Shown here in pieces: positions 2,652-13,920 of a stretch of DNA of 53,753 bases; within the stretch, counting starts at the first letter, position 1, and each line of letters begins with the position of its first letter. The stretch lies in IMG/VR virus record IMGVR_UViG_3300000549_000001, positions 1-53,753 of that record. One strand, given 5' to 3'. Under the pieces are notes generated by a model, which saw only the letters and a program-made list of their open reading frames with translations, was not told the origin of the DNA and ran no database searches. The position numbers and the translations under genes are program-made. Source of the DNA: a virus.

Positions 2652-3590
2652 ATGGCACGACCATCACGTGGGACGTCGTTTGTCCGCAACTACAAGGAAA
2701 CCGAGTGGCGCGAGCCGGGTGAGGGTTATACCGGCGAGGAGCCCATGAAGGGTCTCTATCCGATGCGGCTGGTAGGCGTCGAGCCGCACGAGAGCGCGGA
2801 GGGCAATGCGAGTACGCATTGGACCTTTCAGTGTACCGCCGAAGCCATCGGGAAGAACGGCGACAGTTACGAGGGATGGCGAGGGCACAAGTACACCAAC
2901 GATGAGGGTGCTGCATTCATCGAGCAGCAGATCCTTGTCGCACTGGGTGCCATTCGCCCCAACGGCACCATCAAGACCACGCTCGAAGAGCTGGTCCGCA
3001 AGTACGGCAAGGTGACGGTGCTGGGTCGTGTGGTCCGAGAGCGCTACATCCCCGAGGATGGCGAACCGGAATGGCGCGCCAAGCTGGCCACCGTCTTGAA
3101 GAATCGGGACGCACCGCGCGGAACAGGTTCCGACGACGATGACGAGGATGAGGCTGACGAGGAGGTCGAGGAGGCGCCACCAACGACACGGACCAGTCGG
3201 CGCGCCAGTCGCAAGCCCGCCCCCGCGTCGGCAGCCGATCCCGAGGAGGACGAAGAGGACGAGGAGGAGGACGACCAGGAGGAGGAGCCATACGACCTCG
3301 ACGAGCTCGGCGAAGAGCTGGAGGGTTTGACACCCGTTCAGCTCAAGAAGCGGGCTCGCGAGGAATTCGGCTTCACCACGGCACAGTTGCGGGGTGTCGC
3401 GGCGGAGGACATCATCGAACAGATCCTGGACAAGGTGGAGGCCGAACAGGACGGCGAGGACGAGGAAGAAGAGCCCGAGCCCGAGCCGCCGAAGCGGTCC
3501 AAGGCGCGCGCGGCGACGGCCACCAAGTCCGCCGCGTCGGGGCGCAAGCGCGCCAGCACACCGACGGCTGACGACGAGCCACCCTTCTAG
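2652..3590 (+). CDS. SSB-like protein with acidic linkers, SAP-like motif and DDEPPF tip
   Basis: 312 aa. Residues 1-155 look like a compact beta-rich domain with the layout of phage SSB-like (DUF669-type) proteins. Then come a strongly acidic stretch (about 158-172), a basic Ser/Arg linker, a second acidic stretch (about 195-220), and a helical segment (about 215-255, LEGLTPVQLKKRAREEFG) resembling SAP/Rho-N helix-extension-helix DNA-binding motifs. A Lys/Arg/Ala tail ends in DDEPPF, close to the SSB C-terminal partner-docking tip. It follows the Sak4-like ATPase by 12 bases. Role inferred: coats ssDNA and recruits replication and recombination partners. The acidic and SAP-like insertions make it much longer than a plain SSB. 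Confidence 0.7.
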   Translation: MARPSRGTSFVRNYKETEWREPGEGYTGEEPMKGLYPMRLVGVEPHESAEGNASTHWTFQCTAEAIGKNGDSYEGWRGHKYTNDEGAAFIEQQILVALGAIRPNGTIKTTLEELVRKYGKVTVLGRVVRERYIPEDGEPEWRAKLATVLKNRDAPRGTGSDDDDEDEADEEVEEAPPTTRTSRRASRKPAPASAADPEEDEEDEEEDDQEEEPYDLDELGEELEGLTPVQLKKRAREEFGFTTAQLRGVAAEDIIEQILDKVEAEQDGEDEEEEPEPEPPKRSKARAATATKSAASGRKRASTPTADDEPPF

Positions 3591-3602
3591 CGGACGGGTA
3601 TT

Positions 3603-3638
3603 CAACGGGCGGTCACTGGCAACGGTGGCCGCCCGTTG
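3603..3638. terminator. Strong hairpin between convergent genes
   Basis: Perfect 14-bp stem (one G-T pair) CAACGGGCGGTCAC / GTGGCCGCCCGTTG around an 8-base loop. It lies between the rightward SSB-like gene (stop 3590) and the leftward HTH gene (stop 3684). There is no T-run, as often seen for actinobacterial terminators, so it may act in both directions. Confidence 0.65.
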
Positions 3639-3683
3639 GTGTCGGTGCCCTAGACGGGCCCGTGCGCTACCCAGATCCCGAGG

Positions 3684-3986
3684 CTAGGAGCTGCAGAGGG
3701 CGCACGGGCAGGCGGGACGGTGGTTCTGCTTCTCCGGCGGTACGCGCGGTGCTGCCTGCGGGCCGCTCGAGATAAAATTCGTCAGATCCGCGTCAATGGC
3801 CTCAGCGGTAATGCCTGAATTCTCCTCAAGCCTTCGCAACGCGTCGGCGGAGAGATACCGCTCGCCGGCCAGAATCATGGCCATGTGTTGCCGGCTACAT
3901 CCAGCGCGGCGTCCGAGCTCGGTTTTGGTCCAGCCTCTCTCGAGACGAATGGCATCTAATTTCTGAGTGTTAAATCTGTAACCCAT
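3684..3986 (-). CDS. Cro/CI-type helix-turn-helix repressor-like protein
   Basis: The only leftward gene seen. Start set at ATG 3986 (MGYRFN), giving 100 aa; a longer in-frame form from 4067 would add 27 residues that read like translated promoter DNA. An XRE-family HTH spans about residues 10-55: LERGWTKTELGRRAGCSRQ, then GERYLSADALRRLEE. The tail ends in CPCALC, an unusual Cys pair. No Shine-Dalgarno is visible, but TACGCT at 3999-3994 (leftward strand) sits 7 bases before the ATG, as in leaderless actinobacterial transcripts. The operator-like GCAAC triplet repeat lies right there, suggesting autoregulation. It could be a lysogeny repressor or a lytic-cycle regulator. Confidence 0.75.
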   Translation of the reverse strand: MGYRFNTQKLDAIRLERGWTKTELGRRAGCSRQHMAMILAGERYLSADALRRLEENSGITAEAIDADLTNFISSGPQAAPRVPPEKQNHRPACPCALCSS

Positions 3987-4001
3987 GGGGATTAGCGTAC
4001 G

Positions 4002-4016
4002 GCAACGCAACGCAAC
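4002..4016 (-). promoter_or_regulatory. Operator-like repeat, left copy
   Basis: Three tandem GCAAC units ending 16 bases before the start codon of the leftward HTH gene, overlapping where its promoter should be. Its exact inverse lies at 4143-4157. Probable binding site of the HTH protein for autoregulation (inference). Confidence 0.55.
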
Positions 4017-4142
4017 TGACGGACCTGAGCCAAAAAAAATGCTAGGGGCTAAGTAATTTTTGGTCACTCCCCCTCACGCGCGGGAGGTTTTAGCGAAAAA
4101 AAATGCAGCCGGGGATTATGCGGGCGCGCTTCGCATCCTCAC

Positions 4143-4157
4143 GTTGCGTTGCGTTGC
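4143..4157 (+). promoter_or_regulatory. Operator-like repeat, right copy
   Basis: GTTGCGTTGCGTTGC, the perfect reverse complement of 4002-4016. It lies 170 bases before the first rightward gene at 4327, where it could control the early rightward promoter. Confidence 0.55.
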
Positions 4158-4326
4158 GAGGTAGTGAGACCGTCATAGTTGCTCTGTACCGGGCCGCGTG
4201 GCACAGTGCGGCTACACGCACACAGCCGCCTCAAACATCGATAATTGCAATTGCTCAACAGCCAATTGAATGAGAGATCTTCATCTTCATCTTCATCTAG
4301 TTCCATCATTAGAGGGGATACTAGGT

Positions 4327-4596
4327 ATGGCGACGACTGCCACGCCCAAGCCAGTCTCGAGACGCGTCTTATTGCGCATGCCGATTCACGTGGGAACGTT
4401 CCTAGATCTCATGTGTCGGCTCAGTGGGCGGCGCAAACGTCAGGTGGTGGATATGATCTGGGCAGAGGGCATGCGCAGTGTGTTCGGCATCACACCCGAC
4501 GAGCTCTCCATTTGCCGGATGAGCATTCCGCCCCGGACGCACGTTCTCACTGATGATCTTCGCGAGCTGACCGAGCTCGTGTGCGGCGAACGATGA
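4327..4596 (+). CDS. Hypothetical protein, 89 aa, first gene of the replication operon
   Basis: 89 aa from ATG 4327, chosen because GAGGGG lies nine bases upstream; an in-frame start at 4270 would add a repeat-derived HLHLHL segment. The sequence begins MATTATPKPVSRRVLL and carries a basic helical stretch LSGRRKRQVVDMIWAEGM (about 31-48) resembling ribbon-helix-helix or other small DNA-binding proteins. Being first after the control region, a transcription regulator is plausible but unproven. Stop overlaps the next start (ATGA). Confidence 0.7.
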   Translation: MATTATPKPVSRRVLLRMPIHVGTFLDLMCRLSGRRKRQVVDMIWAEGMRSVFGITPDELSICRMSIPPRTHVLTDDLRELTELVCGER

Positions 4597-4850
4597 CGTC
4601 CCGGCGTCGGCGCGCACCGCTGCCGGGATATGCCGAAGCCCGTACGGCATTGGCTCAGCACCTGCATCGCCATCATGACGGCGCTTACGGGCAGGGCACA
4701 CTGGCAGAGCGCGTTTCCCAGCATGACGACTTGCACTTCTTGCGCACGAGCCAGGGGAAGGCGGTGAGCCACCAGCACGCCATGCTGGGAGACAACGAGA
4801 CCATGATTGACGTCGCGCATCGGTATCTGCGAGAGGGTTCGAATGGGTAG
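4593..4850 (+). CDS. Hypothetical protein, 85 aa
   Basis: 85-residue His- and Arg-rich protein, starting at the ATGA overlap at 4593 (a GTG at 4581 would add four residues). It contains AQHLHRHHDG and ends with a helical HRYLREG segment. It overlaps the primase-helicase start by 8 bases. No family recognised; position suggests a small replication accessory factor. Confidence 0.65.
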   Translation: MTSRRRRAPLPGYAEARTALAQHLHRHHDGAYGQGTLAERVSQHDDLHFLRTSQGKAVSHQHAMLGDNETMIDVAHRYLREGSNG

Positions 4851-7695
4851 GGCGACCTCGCAAGCAACCCAAGATCTGCTGGCACCGTGGCTGGTCGGCC
4901 GCGTGCCCGCAGACGGTGATGGCGAGGCGCGCGCCTTCTGTCCGCTGTGCGAGGAGCCCGGCGAAAGCAAATCCCCGAGCGGAAGTTTCAACTTCAAAGA
5001 AGGCGTCTTCACATGTTTCTCACAATGCGGTGGGATGAGCGTGACGACCCTCATGAACATGCTGAAGCAAGACGGGGACTTAGCGCATGCCCACAGCACC
5101 AACGGTCATCGGCCGACGAAGACCGTGGCTCCGCCCCCGACGTCTCCTGCAGCCACCGCGCAACTCCCCACCGAAGCACGCATTGATGACTTCGTGCAGC
5201 GCCTCCTCAGTAACGCGCAACGCTTAGCTGTGATGCGTGATGAACGGGGGCTCACGCGGAAGACCATTGAGACATTCAAGCTGGGTTGGGATGGGCGTCG
5301 TTATACCATCCCAGTGTATGACGAGGATGGATATCTCGTCAATGTTCGGCGCTATGACCCGCACGCTAAAGACGCGAAGAACAAAATGCGGAGTTGGTCC
5401 CGGGGATCGGGCTCTCGCCGTCTCTTTCTCCCCTGGGTTGTTGACGAAAGCGAAACCGTCATCATCGTGGAGGGTGAGATGGACGCGGTGATCGGTCAGC
5501 AATACGGCCTCCCGACGATGGCGCATACCGGTGGTGCGCTGTCCTGGGACAACCGATGGAATGATACATTTCAAGACAAGAAAGTGTTCGTATGTTATGA
5601 CTGTGACGATGCTGGCCGTCGGGGAGCCCGCAAGGTCGCCAGTGCGTTAAAACAGTTTGCTCGTGAGGTGCACGTCATTACGTTGCCGTTGACGGAGAAA
5701 GGCGCAGACCTCACGGATTATTTTGTGAATCATGATCGGAGCGCCGCCGAGTTCTATGTGCTGATGAAGGAGGCCACGGAACAGGCGTACCGCTCGGCGT
5801 CCTTGCAATCCCAACGCTCCTCGACACCCACATCTGTTGACCTTGAGAATACGATGAACCCCGCCTACTTTGACAGACCGATTACCTTCACGGCACAGAT
5901 TGCCGGTAAAACGATCCCGCCACATCATATGCCTCGGCGGTTGGAGTTCGCCTGCAATGAAGGCGGTGGGACGCGGTGTTCTAAGTGTCCGATCAGTGGC
6001 CGCAATCATCTCGAGCTTGACATCCCACCCAACGATCCCATTGCCCTCGAGCTCATTGGGAAGAATGATGAGGGTCGTCGCAAGTCGCTCTTGAAATATG
6101 CAGGGCTACCGCCCACCTGCCCGGACGTGGAGAAAGAAGAAGTCGGTGTGTATAGCGTCGAGGAACTGATTGTCTTGCCCCCGGCGGACGAGCAGGTGGG
6201 TACCGTCAACAAAATTGATCGTAAGATCTATAACGTCGGTTCGTTCGCTAGTCCTGTGAACGCCAAAGCCACCTTTGTCGGAGTGAATACGACGAGCCCT
6301 GCGGATGGTCGTGCGGCGCTCATGACCTGGCTCAGTGAACTTGCCAGCTCCGATATCGATAAGTTCACGGTGACCCCGGAGATTGTGGCGGAGCTCAGCG
6401 CTTTCTGGCCCACGGCGGAGCAGACCCCCATTGCCAAGATGCGTGAGATCGTTCGTGACATTGAAGCCAACGTGACCAAGATCTATGGGCGTCCCGCGTT
6501 GCATATGGCCTATGACCTGGTCTGGCACAGTGCGCTCAATTTCACCTTCAAGGGTGTTGACCTCGGCAAGGGTTGGTTAGAGCTTTTGGTGATCGGGGAC
6601 ACCCGAACCGGCAAGAGTGAAGCCGCCAAGCGTCTTTGCCATCACTACCGCGCTGGCGTTTTGACCACCTGTGAGGGCGCCACCTTCGCCGGGCTCGTCG
6701 GCGGTGTGCAGAAGATCAGTGACATGTGGATGGTGAGCTGGGGCACCATTCCACTCAATGATCGTCGGCTTGTGATCCTTGATGAAGCCGGTGCGCTCGC
6801 GGACAAGGGCATCATTGAACAAATGAGCTCGGTGCGCTCCTCGGGGGTCGCCCAGATCAATAAGATTCAGAGCCGGGACACGCAAGCCCGCACCCGACTC
6901 ATTTGGATCGCTAATCCGGTGGACGGGAGTACCGTCGAAAGCTATGCCAATGGTGCCATGGATGCGTTGCGCGCATTGGCGCACAATCCCGAAGACTTGG
7001 CGCGGTTTGACTTTGCGATGGCGGTGGCCAGTAGTGACGTCAAGGCTGAAGAAATCAATACGCGGAAGCCACCCCACGTCACGCATCGCTACACCCAACG
7101 CCTGTGTAGCCAATTGGTGAACTGGGTATGGTCCCGTACCGCAGATCAAATCGTGTGGGAACCCGGTGTTGAAAATTACGTTCTCGATGTGGCGCAAGCC
7201 CTGGGCGCTCGGTACATTCCAGAACCACCACTCATTCAAGTGGAGAACGTTCGTGTGAAGTTAGCTCGGATGGCGGTCGCGGTGGCTGGTCGGCTCTTCA
7301 GTTGCGATGACAGTGGCGAGCTCCTCATCGTTGGCCGAGAACATGTTCAGGCGGCCGAACGCCTGTTACGCGGCTTTTACGAGATGGATAGCTTTGGCTA
7401 TGCCGAGCACAGCGCCAACGTGTTGTATGAGCGGGCAGAAGCCGCCACCAATGCACGGTCTGTGCAGAAGTATCTGGTGGCTAACGATGATATTTTCGAG
7501 ACGCTCAAGAGCTGTATGGCGGGTCCATTTAAGATGCGAGACTTCCAAGAATTCGGGGGTATGACACAATTGGAGGCGCAAGAAGCGGTGCGGGTCTTGC
7601 AGCAGCAGCGTATGATTCGCCGGTTGAGTCGAGGGTATATCCGGGCAGAACCGACGTTGATTGAGCTGATCAAAGGGATGGAGAGATCACGATGA
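4843..7695 (+). CDS. DnaG-type primase fused to an MCM-like AAA+ helicase
   Basis: 950 aa from ATG 4843. N-terminus: zinc finger with CPLC (about 33-36) and CFSQC (about 57-61). Then a TOPRIM primase core: VEGEMDAV at about 209 and YDCDDAG at about 251. Next is an OB-like region with a Cys/His zinc site (ACNEGGG, CSKC, about 367-387). The AAA+ domain has Walker A GDTRTGKS (about 584-591), GVLTTCEGATFAGLVGGV, Walker B RLVILDEAG (about 642-650), sensor-1 LIWIANP (about 686) and an arginine-finger-like LARFDF, which is the MCM order rather than DnaB or gp4. A winged-helix-like segment ends the protein. Predicted replicative primase-helicase making primers and unwinding the fork ahead of the phage DnaE. 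Starts inside the previous gene (8-base overlap). Confidence 0.85.
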   Translation: MGRATSQATQDLLAPWLVGRVPADGDGEARAFCPLCEEPGESKSPSGSFNFKEGVFTCFSQCGGMSVTTLMNMLKQDGDLAHAHSTNGHRPTKTVAPPPTSPAATAQLPTEARIDDFVQRLLSNAQRLAVMRDERGLTRKTIETFKLGWDGRRYTIPVYDEDGYLVNVRRYDPHAKDAKNKMRSWSRGSGSRRLFLPWVVDESETVIIVEGEMDAVIGQQYGLPTMAHTGGALSWDNRWNDTFQDKKVFVCYDCDDAGRRGARKVASALKQFAREVHVITLPLTEKGADLTDYFVNHDRSAAEFYVLMKEATEQAYRSASLQSQRSSTPTSVDLENTMNPAYFDRPITFTAQIAGKTIPPHHMPRRLEFACNEGGGTRCSKCPISGRNHLELDIPPNDPIALELIGKNDEGRRKSLLKYAGLPPTCPDVEKEEVGVYSVEELIVLPPADEQVGTVNKIDRKIYNVGSFASPVNAKATFVGVNTTSPADGRAALMTWLSELASSDIDKFTVTPEIVAELSAFWPTAEQTPIAKMREIVRDIEANVTKIYGRPALHMAYDLVWHSALNFTFKGVDLGKGWLELLVIGDTRTGKSEAAKRLCHHYRAGVLTTCEGATFAGLVGGVQKISDMWMVSWGTIPLNDRRLVILDEAGALADKGIIEQMSSVRSSGVAQINKIQSRDTQARTRLIWIANPVDGSTVESYANGAMDALRALAHNPEDLARFDFAMAVASSDVKAEEINTRKPPHVTHRYTQRLCSQLVNWVWSRTADQIVWEPGVENYVLDVAQALGARYIPEPPLIQVENVRVKLARMAVAVAGRLFSCDDSGELLIVGREHVQAAERLLRGFYEMDSFGYAEHSANVLYERAEAATNARSVQKYLVANDDIFETLKSCMAGPFKMRDFQEFGGMTQLEAQEAVRVLQQQRMIRRLSRGYIRAEPTLIELIKGMERSR

Positions 7696-8264
7696 CGTTT
7701 CCAATGCTCGTGATACTTCCCTATGCAAACGTCACCGACAGCCTGCGGATTCTCTGCAACGATGATCTGATTGATCAGATTAGACAATGCGAGATTATTC
7801 TGCAAATACTGGCCGAACCGAACACAGACGAGAGCAAATTATTGGTTCACAAGATGTGGCGCGGCTACGAGAGTGCCGTCCTGTGGCATACGATTCAAGC
7901 CTGCCAAGAATTTGATCTGCGTGCGCCACAATGGCAACGGCGGACGTTGGCCGTCACGCGGCGCTCATGGCTGCGGGCCCAGAAGGCGGGGTGGCGGTTA
8001 CCGCCGCTGATGCCCCGGTGGTTTGGCTATCGTCTGGTGCACATGAGCCATCAAAGCCATTTGATTCGTCATCGGCCAGACACCTATGCCCGGCATTGGC
8101 CAGACGTGCCACTCGATATGCCGTTACTCTGGCCGCAAAATGTGCCCGGTCGTTTCGAGTTCACAATTGACATCAGTGCGTTGCATCGCCAGGCGCTAAC
8201 GCGCGGTGAGCTCGTCTTGCGGACCACCTCGACAGACCGTCGTATGAAAGGGATGACGTCGTGA
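7692..8264 (+). CDS. MSMEG_6728-family protein (pyrimidine-dimer-glycosylase-like)
   Basis: 190 aa. The pattern PYANVTDSLRIL near the start, KMWRGYESAV in the middle, and SHQSHLIRHRPDTYARHWPDVP with a final LLWP closely matches the MSMEG_6728 family of actinobacterial proteins, which is related by annotation to T4 endonuclease V-type pyrimidine dimer DNA glycosylases. A DNA repair role is inferred from that family link; activity has not been shown here. The last 35 residues extend beyond the usual family core. ATGA overlap with the primase-helicase gene links it to the replication operon. Confidence 0.7.
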   Translation: MTFPMLVILPYANVTDSLRILCNDDLIDQIRQCEIILQILAEPNTDESKLLVHKMWRGYESAVLWHTIQACQEFDLRAPQWQRRTLAVTRRSWLRAQKAGWRLPPLMPRWFGYRLVHMSHQSHLIRHRPDTYARHWPDVPLDMPLLWPQNVPGRFEFTIDISALHRQALTRGELVLRTTSTDRRMKGMTS

Positions 8265-10743: not shown

Positions 10744-13700
10744 GTGAAGTTCGCGAGCTTGCACCATCACACCACGCTCTCGTACGGCGATGGGTTTCGG
10801 ACGCCTGAGGAACACGTGACCGCCGTGGCAGAGCTCGGGTATGTCGGACTGGCTCTCACGGAGCACGGCAATGTCAGCAGCCATGTGAAGCTCGAAAAGG
10901 CTGCGTTAGCTGCCGGTCTCCGCGCAGGGTATGGGGTCGAGCTCTATTGTGCAACGAATGATGAACGCGGCCAGCTTAAAAACCATTTGACCGTGATCGC
11001 TGAAGACCCCGAAGGATATCGCAATCTGTTGCGATTGGTCAGTGCGAGCTGGCGCAACTTCAGATACAAGCCCACGACCACGTCCGCGATGTTGCAGGAG
11101 TATGCGGAGGGGCTGGTCGTCCTGAGCGGCTGCCTGGGCGGGCTGCTGGCGACCACGCTGTGGGGCGGGAAGGGCGCGCCGGAACGCACGGTCGCCGATA
11201 TAGACGCGGGGGTCCGGGTGGCACGGTGGTTCCGGCGCATCTTCGGGGACCGGTACTACTTGGAAGTCATGCCACACCCGACCTTGTCGCGCCAGAAGGC
11301 GCACAATGCCGTCTTGGCGGAGCTCGGCCGACGTCTCGCCATCCCGCTCGTCGCGACGTTGGATTGTCATTATCCTTCACCCGCCGATCAAGACATGTAT
11401 CCCATCCTCCACGCCATTGACCGTGGGGGTCGGCACAACACGGTCGAAGCACAGAGCCAGTCGTGGGAATACGACGTGGTGCTAGCCCCGCGTGCTCCAC
11501 ACGACATCCTGCACGACCTGTGTGCGACCGGACTGACGCGCAGTCAAGCAAGACAGGCAATGGAATCAACACTCGACATTGCCGAGCGCTGGTGTGTGAC
11601 CATTCCCAAATTCAAGGAGCTCACCTTCCCGGGGGCGCTACCGTCCAACGATCTGTTGGTGCAATGGACGCGAGACGGCTGGAACTATCGTGGATTTGGG
11701 AGCCTCGTCGGCAAGGAACGCCGACGGTATACCGAACGGGTGCAGTACGAGCTTGACCTCATCAAGGCGAAAGGGTTCACGGATTACTTCCTCGTGATCA
11801 GCGATCTGGTGCGCTGGGCGAAGGATCAAAACATTCCGGTGGGCCCCGCCCGAGGCTCTGCCGCAGCCAGCCTGGTGTGTTATCTGCTGCGTATTACTGA
11901 GATCAACCCGATGCAGTATCCGACCCTGCTCATTGAGCGATTTATTGATCCCAATCGGCATGACCTACCCGATGTTGATCTAGACTTCGATGATGAGCAG
12001 CGCTGGCGGATTCGGCAATATCTGGTCGATCAGTACGGTGCGGAGCGCGTCGGTAACCTCGGGACCTTCGTGCAGTACAAAGGCAAGAACAGCCTTGACG
12101 ACATTGCTCGAGTTTTTCAGATTCCCATTGGTGATGTGACTACCGTCAAGGAAATGCTCATCGAGCGCAGCTCGGGGGATCTGCGGGGGAATGCCACCAT
12201 TGAAGACAGCGCGGCGATGTTCCCGAAGGTCGCTGCCATCTTGGAGCGGCACCCCCGGCTGAAGCAAGCGATGCGGCTCGAGGGAAATATCAAGGGCATG
12301 AGCGTGCATGCGGCTGGGCTGGTGGTGGCCAATGAGCCGCTCACAGAGGGCGTGGCTGTCTATACTCGCACGGATAGCAAGACCGGTGAGACGGCTAGTG
12401 TCCTCAGCATTGACAAATACGATGCGGACTATATCAATGCACTGAAAATTGACGCCCTGGGGCTGACCACGATGGGCGCTATTCGCCGATGCCTTGACAT
12501 GATCGGGATGGACCTGCAAGACTTGTACGACTTGCCCACTGACGATGAAGAAGTCTTCGAAGCCTTCCGCGCGAATAAGGTCATTGGCGTATTTCAATTT
12601 GACGGTCGGGCCATGCGCTCCGTCAATCGTGAGGTGCAGCCCACCACGTTCATGGAGCTCTGCGATATCAACGCGCTGGCGCGTCCCGGCCCGTTGCACT
12701 CGGGGGCGGCAGCGGAATACATTCAAGTGAAGCATGGTCGGAAGCCTGCCGAACACTTTCATCCGGTCGTTGACGACATTACTCGCCATACGAATTATCA
12801 GATTGTATATCAAGAACAGATCCTGCAGGTCGTCCGGCGCCTTGGGGGGTTCACGTGGGAGCAAGCAGCGGCGATTCGGAAGCTCATTTCGAAAAAGCAA
12901 GGCGAGCAAGCCTTCAACCGCATGCAACAGTTATTCCTGGATGGGTGTGCCTCCAATGGGGTCAAGGATCACTCGGCGATCCGTATCTGGAAGCAGCTCG
13001 TGACCGCCGGTGCCTATGCGTTCAATGCGGCACATTGTGTGAGCTACGGCACCATCGCGTATTGGACCATGTGGTTGAAAGTCCACCATCCCTTGGAGTT
13101 CTATTGCAGTTCATTGCAGAAGTACGATCCGAAGACAAAGGGCTTTGATCTCTTGAAAGAAGCTGACACGTTCGGGATTCGTATTTACCCGCCTGCACCG
13201 ACAGTGTCGGAAACCTCATGGTCGGTCTACAACGGTGCGCTACTGGCCGGCTTCGTGCAGATACCCGGCATTGGCGAGAAGACAGCGCGGGCGATGGTGG
13301 ACTGGCGCGCAGGAGTTCTGCAGGCGCATGATGCTCAGCGGTCCGCCGAACGCGGTGCGCGCAGGGTGGCGCGGTTGGTCTGGCAGAACTACAGTGACAT
13401 CAAGGGCATCGGCCCAGCGACCATGGAGAAGGTCTCGGTATTTGTCCAAGACCCCGATCCGTTTGGCATTCAACTCCTCGGCAAGAAGCTGGCTGGAGTC
13501 CGAGGATGGCTGAATCAGCACGCTGACGAGAATATGATGCGGCGCCCCACTAGTCGCACCAACGACGTGCCGTACGAGCCCCGGCAAGGCGAGCACATTG
13601 TTTTGGTAGCCGTGCGTGAGAGGAACCTGAAAGACCTCTACGAGCTGCATCGGTCCCGCACCGGGGAGGAGCTCGACAAACGCTCTGTGCGCGAGCCAGA

Positions 13701-13920
13701 GTATGTGAACTGGTGTGTGGTAACTGGTGAGGATGAAACCGGTCCATTGACGATCACAGTGCATCGGTATGGCGGCCTCTACGAGCGCTATAAAGATCTG
13801 CTGTGGGAGATGAATCCGACGCGGGATTTGTTGCTGGTGCGGGGATTCAAGAGGAAAGAGTATCGACGAGCCCTGTATGCGCAGGAGCTGTGGACTATCA
13901 ATACGGAGACAATCATATGA
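10744..13920 (+). CDS. dnaE: DNA polymerase III alpha subunit (DnaE-type) with PHP domain
   Basis: 1058 aa family C polymerase. N-terminal PHP domain starts with LHHHTTLSYGDG (residues 6-17) and keeps TEHGN, so metal-binding residues look largely retained and proofreading by this domain is possible, as known for mycobacterial DnaE1. Palm motifs: GPARGSAAASLV (about 366), catalytic PDVDLDFDDE (about 408-417) and a third aspartate in KIDALGL (about 570). A helix-hairpin-helix-like IPGIGEKTARAM lies near 840. It is about 100 residues shorter than E. coli DnaE, mainly at the C-terminus. It is the replicative polymerase of the phage; no separate epsilon or clamp gene is seen in the window. Confidence 0.95.
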   Translation: MKFASLHHHTTLSYGDGFRTPEEHVTAVAELGYVGLALTEHGNVSSHVKLEKAALAAGLRAGYGVELYCATNDERGQLKNHLTVIAEDPEGYRNLLRLVSASWRNFRYKPTTTSAMLQEYAEGLVVLSGCLGGLLATTLWGGKGAPERTVADIDAGVRVARWFRRIFGDRYYLEVMPHPTLSRQKAHNAVLAELGRRLAIPLVATLDCHYPSPADQDMYPILHAIDRGGRHNTVEAQSQSWEYDVVLAPRAPHDILHDLCATGLTRSQARQAMESTLDIAERWCVTIPKFKELTFPGALPSNDLLVQWTRDGWNYRGFGSLVGKERRRYTERVQYELDLIKAKGFTDYFLVISDLVRWAKDQNIPVGPARGSAAASLVCYLLRITEINPMQYPTLLIERFIDPNRHDLPDVDLDFDDEQRWRIRQYLVDQYGAERVGNLGTFVQYKGKNSLDDIARVFQIPIGDVTTVKEMLIERSSGDLRGNATIEDSAAMFPKVAAILERHPRLKQAMRLEGNIKGMSVHAAGLVVANEPLTEGVAVYTRTDSKTGETASVLSIDKYDADYINALKIDALGLTTMGAIRRCLDMIGMDLQDLYDLPTDDEEVFEAFRANKVIGVFQFDGRAMRSVNREVQPTTFMELCDINALARPGPLHSGAAAEYIQVKHGRKPAEHFHPVVDDITRHTNYQIVYQEQILQVVRRLGGFTWEQAAAIRKLISKKQGEQAFNRMQQLFLDGCASNGVKDHSAIRIWKQLVTAGAYAFNAAHCVSYGTIAYWTMWLKVHHPLEFYCSSLQKYDPKTKGFDLLKEADTFGIRIYPPAPTVSETSWSVYNGALLAGFVQIPGIGEKTARAMVDWRAGVLQAHDAQRSAERGARRVARLVWQNYSDIKGIGPATMEKVSVFVQDPDPFGIQLLGKKLAGVRGWLNQHADENMMRRPTSRTNDVPYEPRQGEHIVLVAVRERNLKDLYELHRSRTGEELDKRSVREPEYVNWCVVTGEDETGPLTITVHRYGGLYERYKDLLWEMNPTRDLLLVRGFKRKEYRRALYAQELWTINTETII

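Follow-up and report, generated by a model that had tools for sequence, protein, structure and literature searches.

Introduction

Proteins in which a primase is followed by an MCM helicase have been described from bacterial mobile elements. BcMCM, from a Bacillus cereus prophage, consists of an archaeo-eukaryotic primase fused to MCM and has both 3′-5′ helicase and primase activity (PMC4538821, which reviews the work of McGeoch and Bell, 2005; Samuels, 2009; Sanchez-Berrondo, 2012). The PrimQH-MCM proteins, also of bacterial mobile elements, have the same order of parts, with an N-terminal primase and a C-terminal MCM (PMC5862659), and the MCM proteins of phages and plasmids are known either with an archaeo-eukaryotic primase or as separate helicases (PMC5862659, PMC4538821, PMC7581432).

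Here we analyse a gene from IMG/VR virus record IMGVR_UViG_3300000549_000001, a tailed phage whose structural genes lie further downstream; this whole stretch of 53,753 bases is referred to as the window. The protein shares with BcMCM, which we compare by its description, and with the PrimQH-MCM proteins the arrangement of primase and MCM and the setting in a bacterial mobile element. Unlike in BcMCM, its primase is of the DnaG/TOPRIM type with a CHC2-type zinc ribbon, and this type is unrelated to the archaeo-eukaryotic primase; DnaG-MCM is thus the architecture class of BcMCM with a primase from another, unrelated family. A zinc ribbon and TOPRIM primase ahead of a ring helicase is also the layout of T7 gp4 and Twinkle, whose ring has a RecA fold, whereas the helicase described here is MCM/AAA+ and expected to move 3′-5′ instead of 5′-3′. 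The first-pass annotation of this DNA held a bacterial-style primase joined to MCM in a phage to be unusual. This stands for the DnaG-type primase but not for phage MCM itself, which BcMCM had already made known. In the open-access literature we found no description of a DnaG-MCM fusion, although a prior one is possible; the apparently new elements are the fusion with DnaG, how often it occurs and the exchange of the primase.

Results

The gene at 4843–7695 (+ strand, as are all features of the protein given below) is a single, intact ORF that runs from an ATG at 4843 to a stop codon at 7693–7695 and encodes 950 amino acids with no internal stops. GAGAGG, a plausible ribosome-binding sequence, lies a few bases 5′ of this ATG; a TTG in the same frame (4807) could also serve as the start but is less likely to. 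Sequence and structure prediction confirm that the ORF encodes a DnaG/T7-gp4-type primase, with zinc ribbon and TOPRIM, followed by a full-length MCM with zinc/OB N-tier, AAA+ motor and winged helix, and every primase and MCM motif named in the first-pass annotation was found in its expected place. Conservation was counted in 63 homologues, 21–63% identical to the window protein. As D253, D255, K591, E648, N691 and R721 are present in 63/63, R809 in 62/63 and K674 in 61/63, the motif set is, judged from the alignment, well beyond chance. The AlphaFold2 model, a monomer built on the 63-sequence alignment, has a mean pLDDT of 89 and a pTM of 0.68, with the relative placement of the domains uncertain; residues 82–105 (5086–5157) form a linker predicted to be disordered (pLDDT <50). 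A chimeric contig as the source of the fusion is ruled out, the same fusion being found in 40 phage records (≥80% query coverage), in most of 80 viral contigs and in some bacterial MAG contigs.

By its sequence and model, the N-terminal half is a primase of the DnaG/gp4 type with an intact TOPRIM site, in agreement with the zinc finger and TOPRIM core read from the sequence at first. The CHC2-like zinc ribbon (C33, C36, C58 and C62, in the pattern CPLC...C...C; 4939–5028) matches the Pfam model Zn_ribbon_DnaG weakly in the window protein (E=0.16) and significantly in the relatives at loci L006, L007, L008 and L010 (down to 3e-11). Across the 63 sequences its positions are C, then H or C, then C, then a variable fourth; the cysteine at this last position (residue 62) is replaced in roughly half of the family. 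The RNA-polymerase/TOPRIM core (residues 111–325; 5173–5817) is recognised by Toprim_2 in Pfam (residues 207–293, E=4.7e-7) and by TIGR01391 (dnaG; E=1.3e-15), and the best matches of a PDB search with a profile of ten homologues were bacterial DnaG and T7 gp4. It carries the TOPRIM motifs EGEMD (E210, D214) and DCD, the latter with the invariant D253 and D255. The catalytic E210 is kept in the window protein but gives way to A or G in 7 of the 63 homologues, so that priming may be altered in some members of the family, though not in this one. No archaeo-eukaryotic primase is present at the N-terminus of the window protein, which is TOPRIM; such a primase is found only in the sister clade described below.

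Like archaeal and eukaryotic MCM, the helicase half combines a zinc/OB N-tier, an AAA+ motor with helix-2 insert, pre-sensor-1 hairpin, arginine finger and sensor 2, and a winged helix; unlike them, it is about 15% identical, falls in a separate long-branch clade and has its own primase attached. The N-tier (residues 329–500; 5827–6342), where the hhalign alignment to archaeal MCM begins, is predicted to have an OB-like fold and a C4 zinc ribbon, of whose cysteines C371, C379 and C382 occur in 61–62 and C426 in 52 of the 63 homologues. Because the Foldseek alignments, at ≥550 columns, exceed the AAA+ part, the N-tier is included in the fold match. The AAA+ motor (residues 512–846; 6376–7380) is recognised by Pfam, phmmer, PDB profile, Foldseek and hhalign. 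It contains Walker A, GDTRTGKS (585–592; 6595–6618), with the invariant K591, and Walker B, LVILDE (643–648, in LVILDEAG, 643–650; 6769–6786), with the invariant E648. The helix-2 insert, EGATFAGLVGGV...WMVSWGTIP (611–637, in AGLVGGV...WGTIPLNDRR, 611–642; 6673–6753), aligns with the MCM helix-2 insert GKASSAAGLTAAV...FVIEAGALML, and the pre-sensor-1 beta hairpin (669–681, with INKIQSRDTQAR at 672–683; 6847–6885), with its lysine K674, is a strand-turn-strand in the model and aligns with ISITKAG of MCM; in the PDB profile search both could be matched to MCM6 and MCM2 position by position. Sensor 1 is IANP (689–692; 6907–6918) with N691, and the arginine finger EDLARFD (717–723, with LARFDF at 719–724; 6991–7011) places R721 in line with SRFD of MCM. 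R809 lies in the sensor 2 helix RVKLARMAVAVAGR (804–817; 7252–7293), which aligns with lesmIRLseA of MCM. The C-terminal winged-helix domain (about residues 871–935; 7453–7647) has the order H-H-H-E-E in the model and is aligned by hhalign to the C-terminus of archaeal MCM.

The assignment of this half to MCM is supported by profile and fold comparison of the predicted protein, which also bear out the MCM motif order proposed at first. When the PDB was searched with the single sequence (phmmer), the best matches were all MCM, with MCM9 and MCM2 first. A profile built from 13 helicase halves gave significant matches to MCM chains only, from E=4e-12, in an alignment that passes through the helix-2 insert and pre-sensor-1 hairpin and then through sensor 1, the RFD arginine finger and sensor 2. 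Among the 60 matches of this profile listed at E≤10 there was no DnaB, SF3 or RepA and no chelatase or YifB chain; the non-MCM matches among them were two irrelevant chance matches and nothing else. The best 50 Foldseek matches of the model in the PDB were all MCM (E 2e-22 to 2e-19, ≥550 columns), and hhalign against eight archaeal MCMs gave E=4.6e-19 over residues 336–934, with 543 collinear columns that begin in the zinc/OB N-tier and reach the winged helix. MCM thus came out well above DnaB in both kinds of search, the check that the first-pass annotation had proposed.

If the C-terminal half were a DnaB/gp4 RecA-fold or an SF3/D5 helicase, the protein would be an ordinary phage primase-helicase, and both its label in public records ('DNA primase/helicase') and its N-terminal half, which is of the same kind as that of T7 gp4 and of the PHROG 'DNA primase/helicase' families, would fit. 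We give this reading practically no credence, since Pfam and NCBIfam, like the PDB profile matches listed, show no DnaB, SF3/D5 or RepA match to the helicase half, all of the best 50 fold matches are MCM, and the order of helix-2 insert, hairpin, RFD and sensor 2 is specific to MCM; a DnaB/gp4 or SF3/D5 identity is refuted by the PDB profile, Foldseek and hhalign results, RepA is equally without matches, and the early remark that DnaB/gp4-style motifs are missing was correct. Slightly less remote, but still very improbable, is another AAA+ protein of the hairpin-insert clade (YifB/ComM, Mg chelatase or MoxR) in place of MCM proper. The Pfam MCM model PF00493 passes its cut-off in 14/14 control genomes, mostly bacterial, and also in bacteria without MCM, presumably through AAA+ proteins of the YifB/Mg-chelatase type. 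We therefore dropped the Pfam match as sole proof, it being non-specific, and for the same reason the controls with YifB and family HMMs matter. YifB does align by hhalign (E=2.6e-6), but locally, over 110 columns only against 543 for archaeal MCM; the family HMM scores are 5–13 bits for YifB against 4–63 for archaeal MCM, most of them 22–63; and the N-tier and winged helix can be aligned only with MCM. With a match that is only local, and no chelatase or YifB chain among the PDB profile matches listed, we reject a YifB/Mg-chelatase identity.

Relatives were found by tblastn in 53 annotated phage records, 40 of them with ≥80% query coverage, which include Microbacterium Krampusvirus, Arthrobacter Wollypog, Bacillus, Weizmannia and Paenibacillus phages and one metagenome siphovirus. 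At least 209 IMG/VR contigs carry relatives, and the viral-contig matches number 209 for the DnaG version as against 13 for the version with an archaeo-eukaryotic primase. Direct homologues that are full-length DnaG-MCM proteins occur in Krampusvirus (gp47), Wollypog (gp50), the Bacillus BSTP phages, Weizmannia Youna2 and Paenibacillus API480; they are 23–41% identical to the window protein, the nearest viral contigs being 59–63% identical, and are annotated only as primase or primase/helicase. Public names for primase-MCM proteins are otherwise 'DNA primase', 'DNA primase small subunit' or, in PHROGs, 'unknown function' (phrog_18685), the last family being an archaeo-eukaryotic primase-MCM fusion (1979 bits to Bacillus phage vB_BboS-125). 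Identification of DnaG-MCM thus corrects the annotation in public records. Among 172 loci whose MCM module is nearly complete, 164 have the DnaG half in the same frame; the loci are not all independent, some contigs being counted twice. The other eight are three archaeo-eukaryotic-primase fusions, three loci cut by contig ends and two apparently without a TOPRIM primase (L138, 3886–5718; L167, 3686–5848), L138 having no DnaG half anywhere on the stretch examined. Four full-length copies of the fusion lie on bacterial MAG contigs and are probably prophage or phage.

DNA_primase_S and DNA_primase_lrg domains (PriS/PriL-like), and not DnaG, precede the same MCM module in Bacillus phage vB_BboS-125, in plasmid p3 of B. 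velezensis and in related viral contigs. When the profiles of the two groups were aligned, the match began at residue 324 of the window protein, directly after the primase half, and ran for 623 columns to the end (E=4e-107). A maximum-likelihood tree built from the MCM motor separates the two primase types into sister groups, which takes a single change (support 85/89 for the DnaG group and 90/67 for the archaeo-eukaryotic group), and sets the phage MCMs as a whole off from archaeal MCM (100/100), with a very long branch between them; a wider quick tree gave the same split between phage and archaeal MCM. The trees point to a phage-specific MCM lineage whose primase half would have been exchanged once between archaeo-eukaryotic (PriS/PriL-like) and DnaG types, in either direction, the root of the phage MCM tree lying on the very long branch. 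On the same tree the polymerase type, Pol III alpha or Pol A, requires at least two changes, which speak neither for nor against direct contact of the fusion protein with either polymerase.

The fusion gene lies in a replication cluster. Ahead of it are an exonuclease (431–1474; phrog_1218), a Sak4-like protein (1797–2639) and an acidic, probable single-strand-binding protein (2652–3590, +), which has no Pfam match; its C-terminus, DDEPPF, resembles the tail of bacterial SSB, and its position is that of the DUF669/'putative SSB' genes of Youna2 and BSTP12. Downstream, a replicative polymerase of the Pol III alpha (DnaE) type is encoded at 10744–13920 (+; Pfam PHP, DNA_pol3_alpha and DNA_pol3_finger). 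Krampusvirus and Wollypog have the same gene order around the fusion. A single ORF encodes DnaE in the window, whereas Krampusvirus DannyDe (L004, 19851–23202) has it split over two genes, as does Wollypog (L005, 17450–21326), where an HNH endonuclease lies between the two. The ORF directly 3′ of the fusion gene (7692–8264) matches the Pfam model for pyrimidine dimer DNA glycosylase, though only marginally. DnaB was found in none of the 39 records with the MCM module, a count that is firm for the complete phage genomes only, several records including the window being fragments; DnaB_C is absent from the whole window record. Pol III alpha is present in 21 of the 39 and Pol A in 16, never both, and every record with a recognised polymerase has one or the other. 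Pol A accompanies the archaeo-eukaryotic primase in 8/8 records, and DnaG records have either polymerase. Upstream of the fusion gene (3400–4900) a search for origin iterons gave nothing more than repeats of two copies each and a single inverted pair of 15 nt, which are not convincing. This perfect pair, GCAACGCAACGCAAC (4002–4016 and 4143–4157), has one arm inside and the other upstream of a reverse-strand HTH gene and is possibly an operator.

Discussion

MCM rings move 3′-5′ on the leading-strand template, and in the eukaryotic CMG their N-tier is at the fork; T7 gp4 and DnaB have a 5′-3′ motor that sits on the lagging strand. The locus as a whole is best explained, and we consider this probable, if the fusion gene encodes the phage's own replicative primase-helicase. 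A replicative role is supported by the grouping of the gene with those for an exonuclease, Sak4, an SSB-like protein and DnaE, by the lack of DnaB in 39/39 records and by the presence of the phage's own polymerase. The MCM part would form a hexameric ring that travels 3′-5′ on the leading-strand template in the manner of cellular MCM and BcMCM, with a motor that would use K591, E648 and a trans-acting R721. The primase is joined to the N-tier, the side turned towards the fork in the eukaryotic CMG, and for this reason the DnaG domains would sit beside the excluded lagging strand at its exit and prime there, and the primers could then be extended by the phage's Pol III alpha subunit. For the hexamer and the geometry of the fork we reason from these analogies, the model being of a monomer.

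Alternatively, the MCM could serve initiation, through origin melting or recombination-dependent restart as for helicases of the SCCmec Cch type, with the host DnaB at the fork. MCM-like helicases of mobile elements can bind their own origins (PMC7581432), recombination genes (exonuclease and Sak4) adjoin the fusion gene, and neither an origin nor a loader of the phage was recognised in this analysis. A tethered primase, an own polymerase and the lack of a phage DnaB nevertheless fit a fork helicase better, and we regard the initiation or restart role as rather unlikely. With the fusion protein taken as the fork helicase, a broader proposal would be that a large group of tailed phages replicates with a hybrid fork, in which a 3′-5′ MCM ring carries DnaG on its fork-facing N-tier, works with either Pol III alpha or Pol A, and has had its primase exchanged once; here we lean only slightly towards acceptance. 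If true, primase identity and helicase polarity would be interchangeable, although a match between the two is assumed for cellular replisomes.

To our knowledge, every DnaG described partners a helicase that runs 5′-3′ on the lagging strand. With DnaG covalently attached to an MCM, which is expected to run 3′-5′ on the other strand, the placement of the primase at the fork becomes testable in one protein, and the fusion is borne by isolated phages, Microbacterium Krampusvirus and the B. subtilis BSTP phages. The PriS/PriL-type sister clade, which shares the MCM module of the window protein, provides a natural domain swap that bears on why bacterial and archaeal replication enzymes are unrelated. 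In two of the Bacillus/Weizmannia relatives (L006 and L007), queuosine/deazaguanine genes (QueC, 6-carboxytetrahydropterin synthase, FolE and a radical SAM protein) lie directly 3′ of the fusion gene, which suggests that the DNA of these phages is modified.
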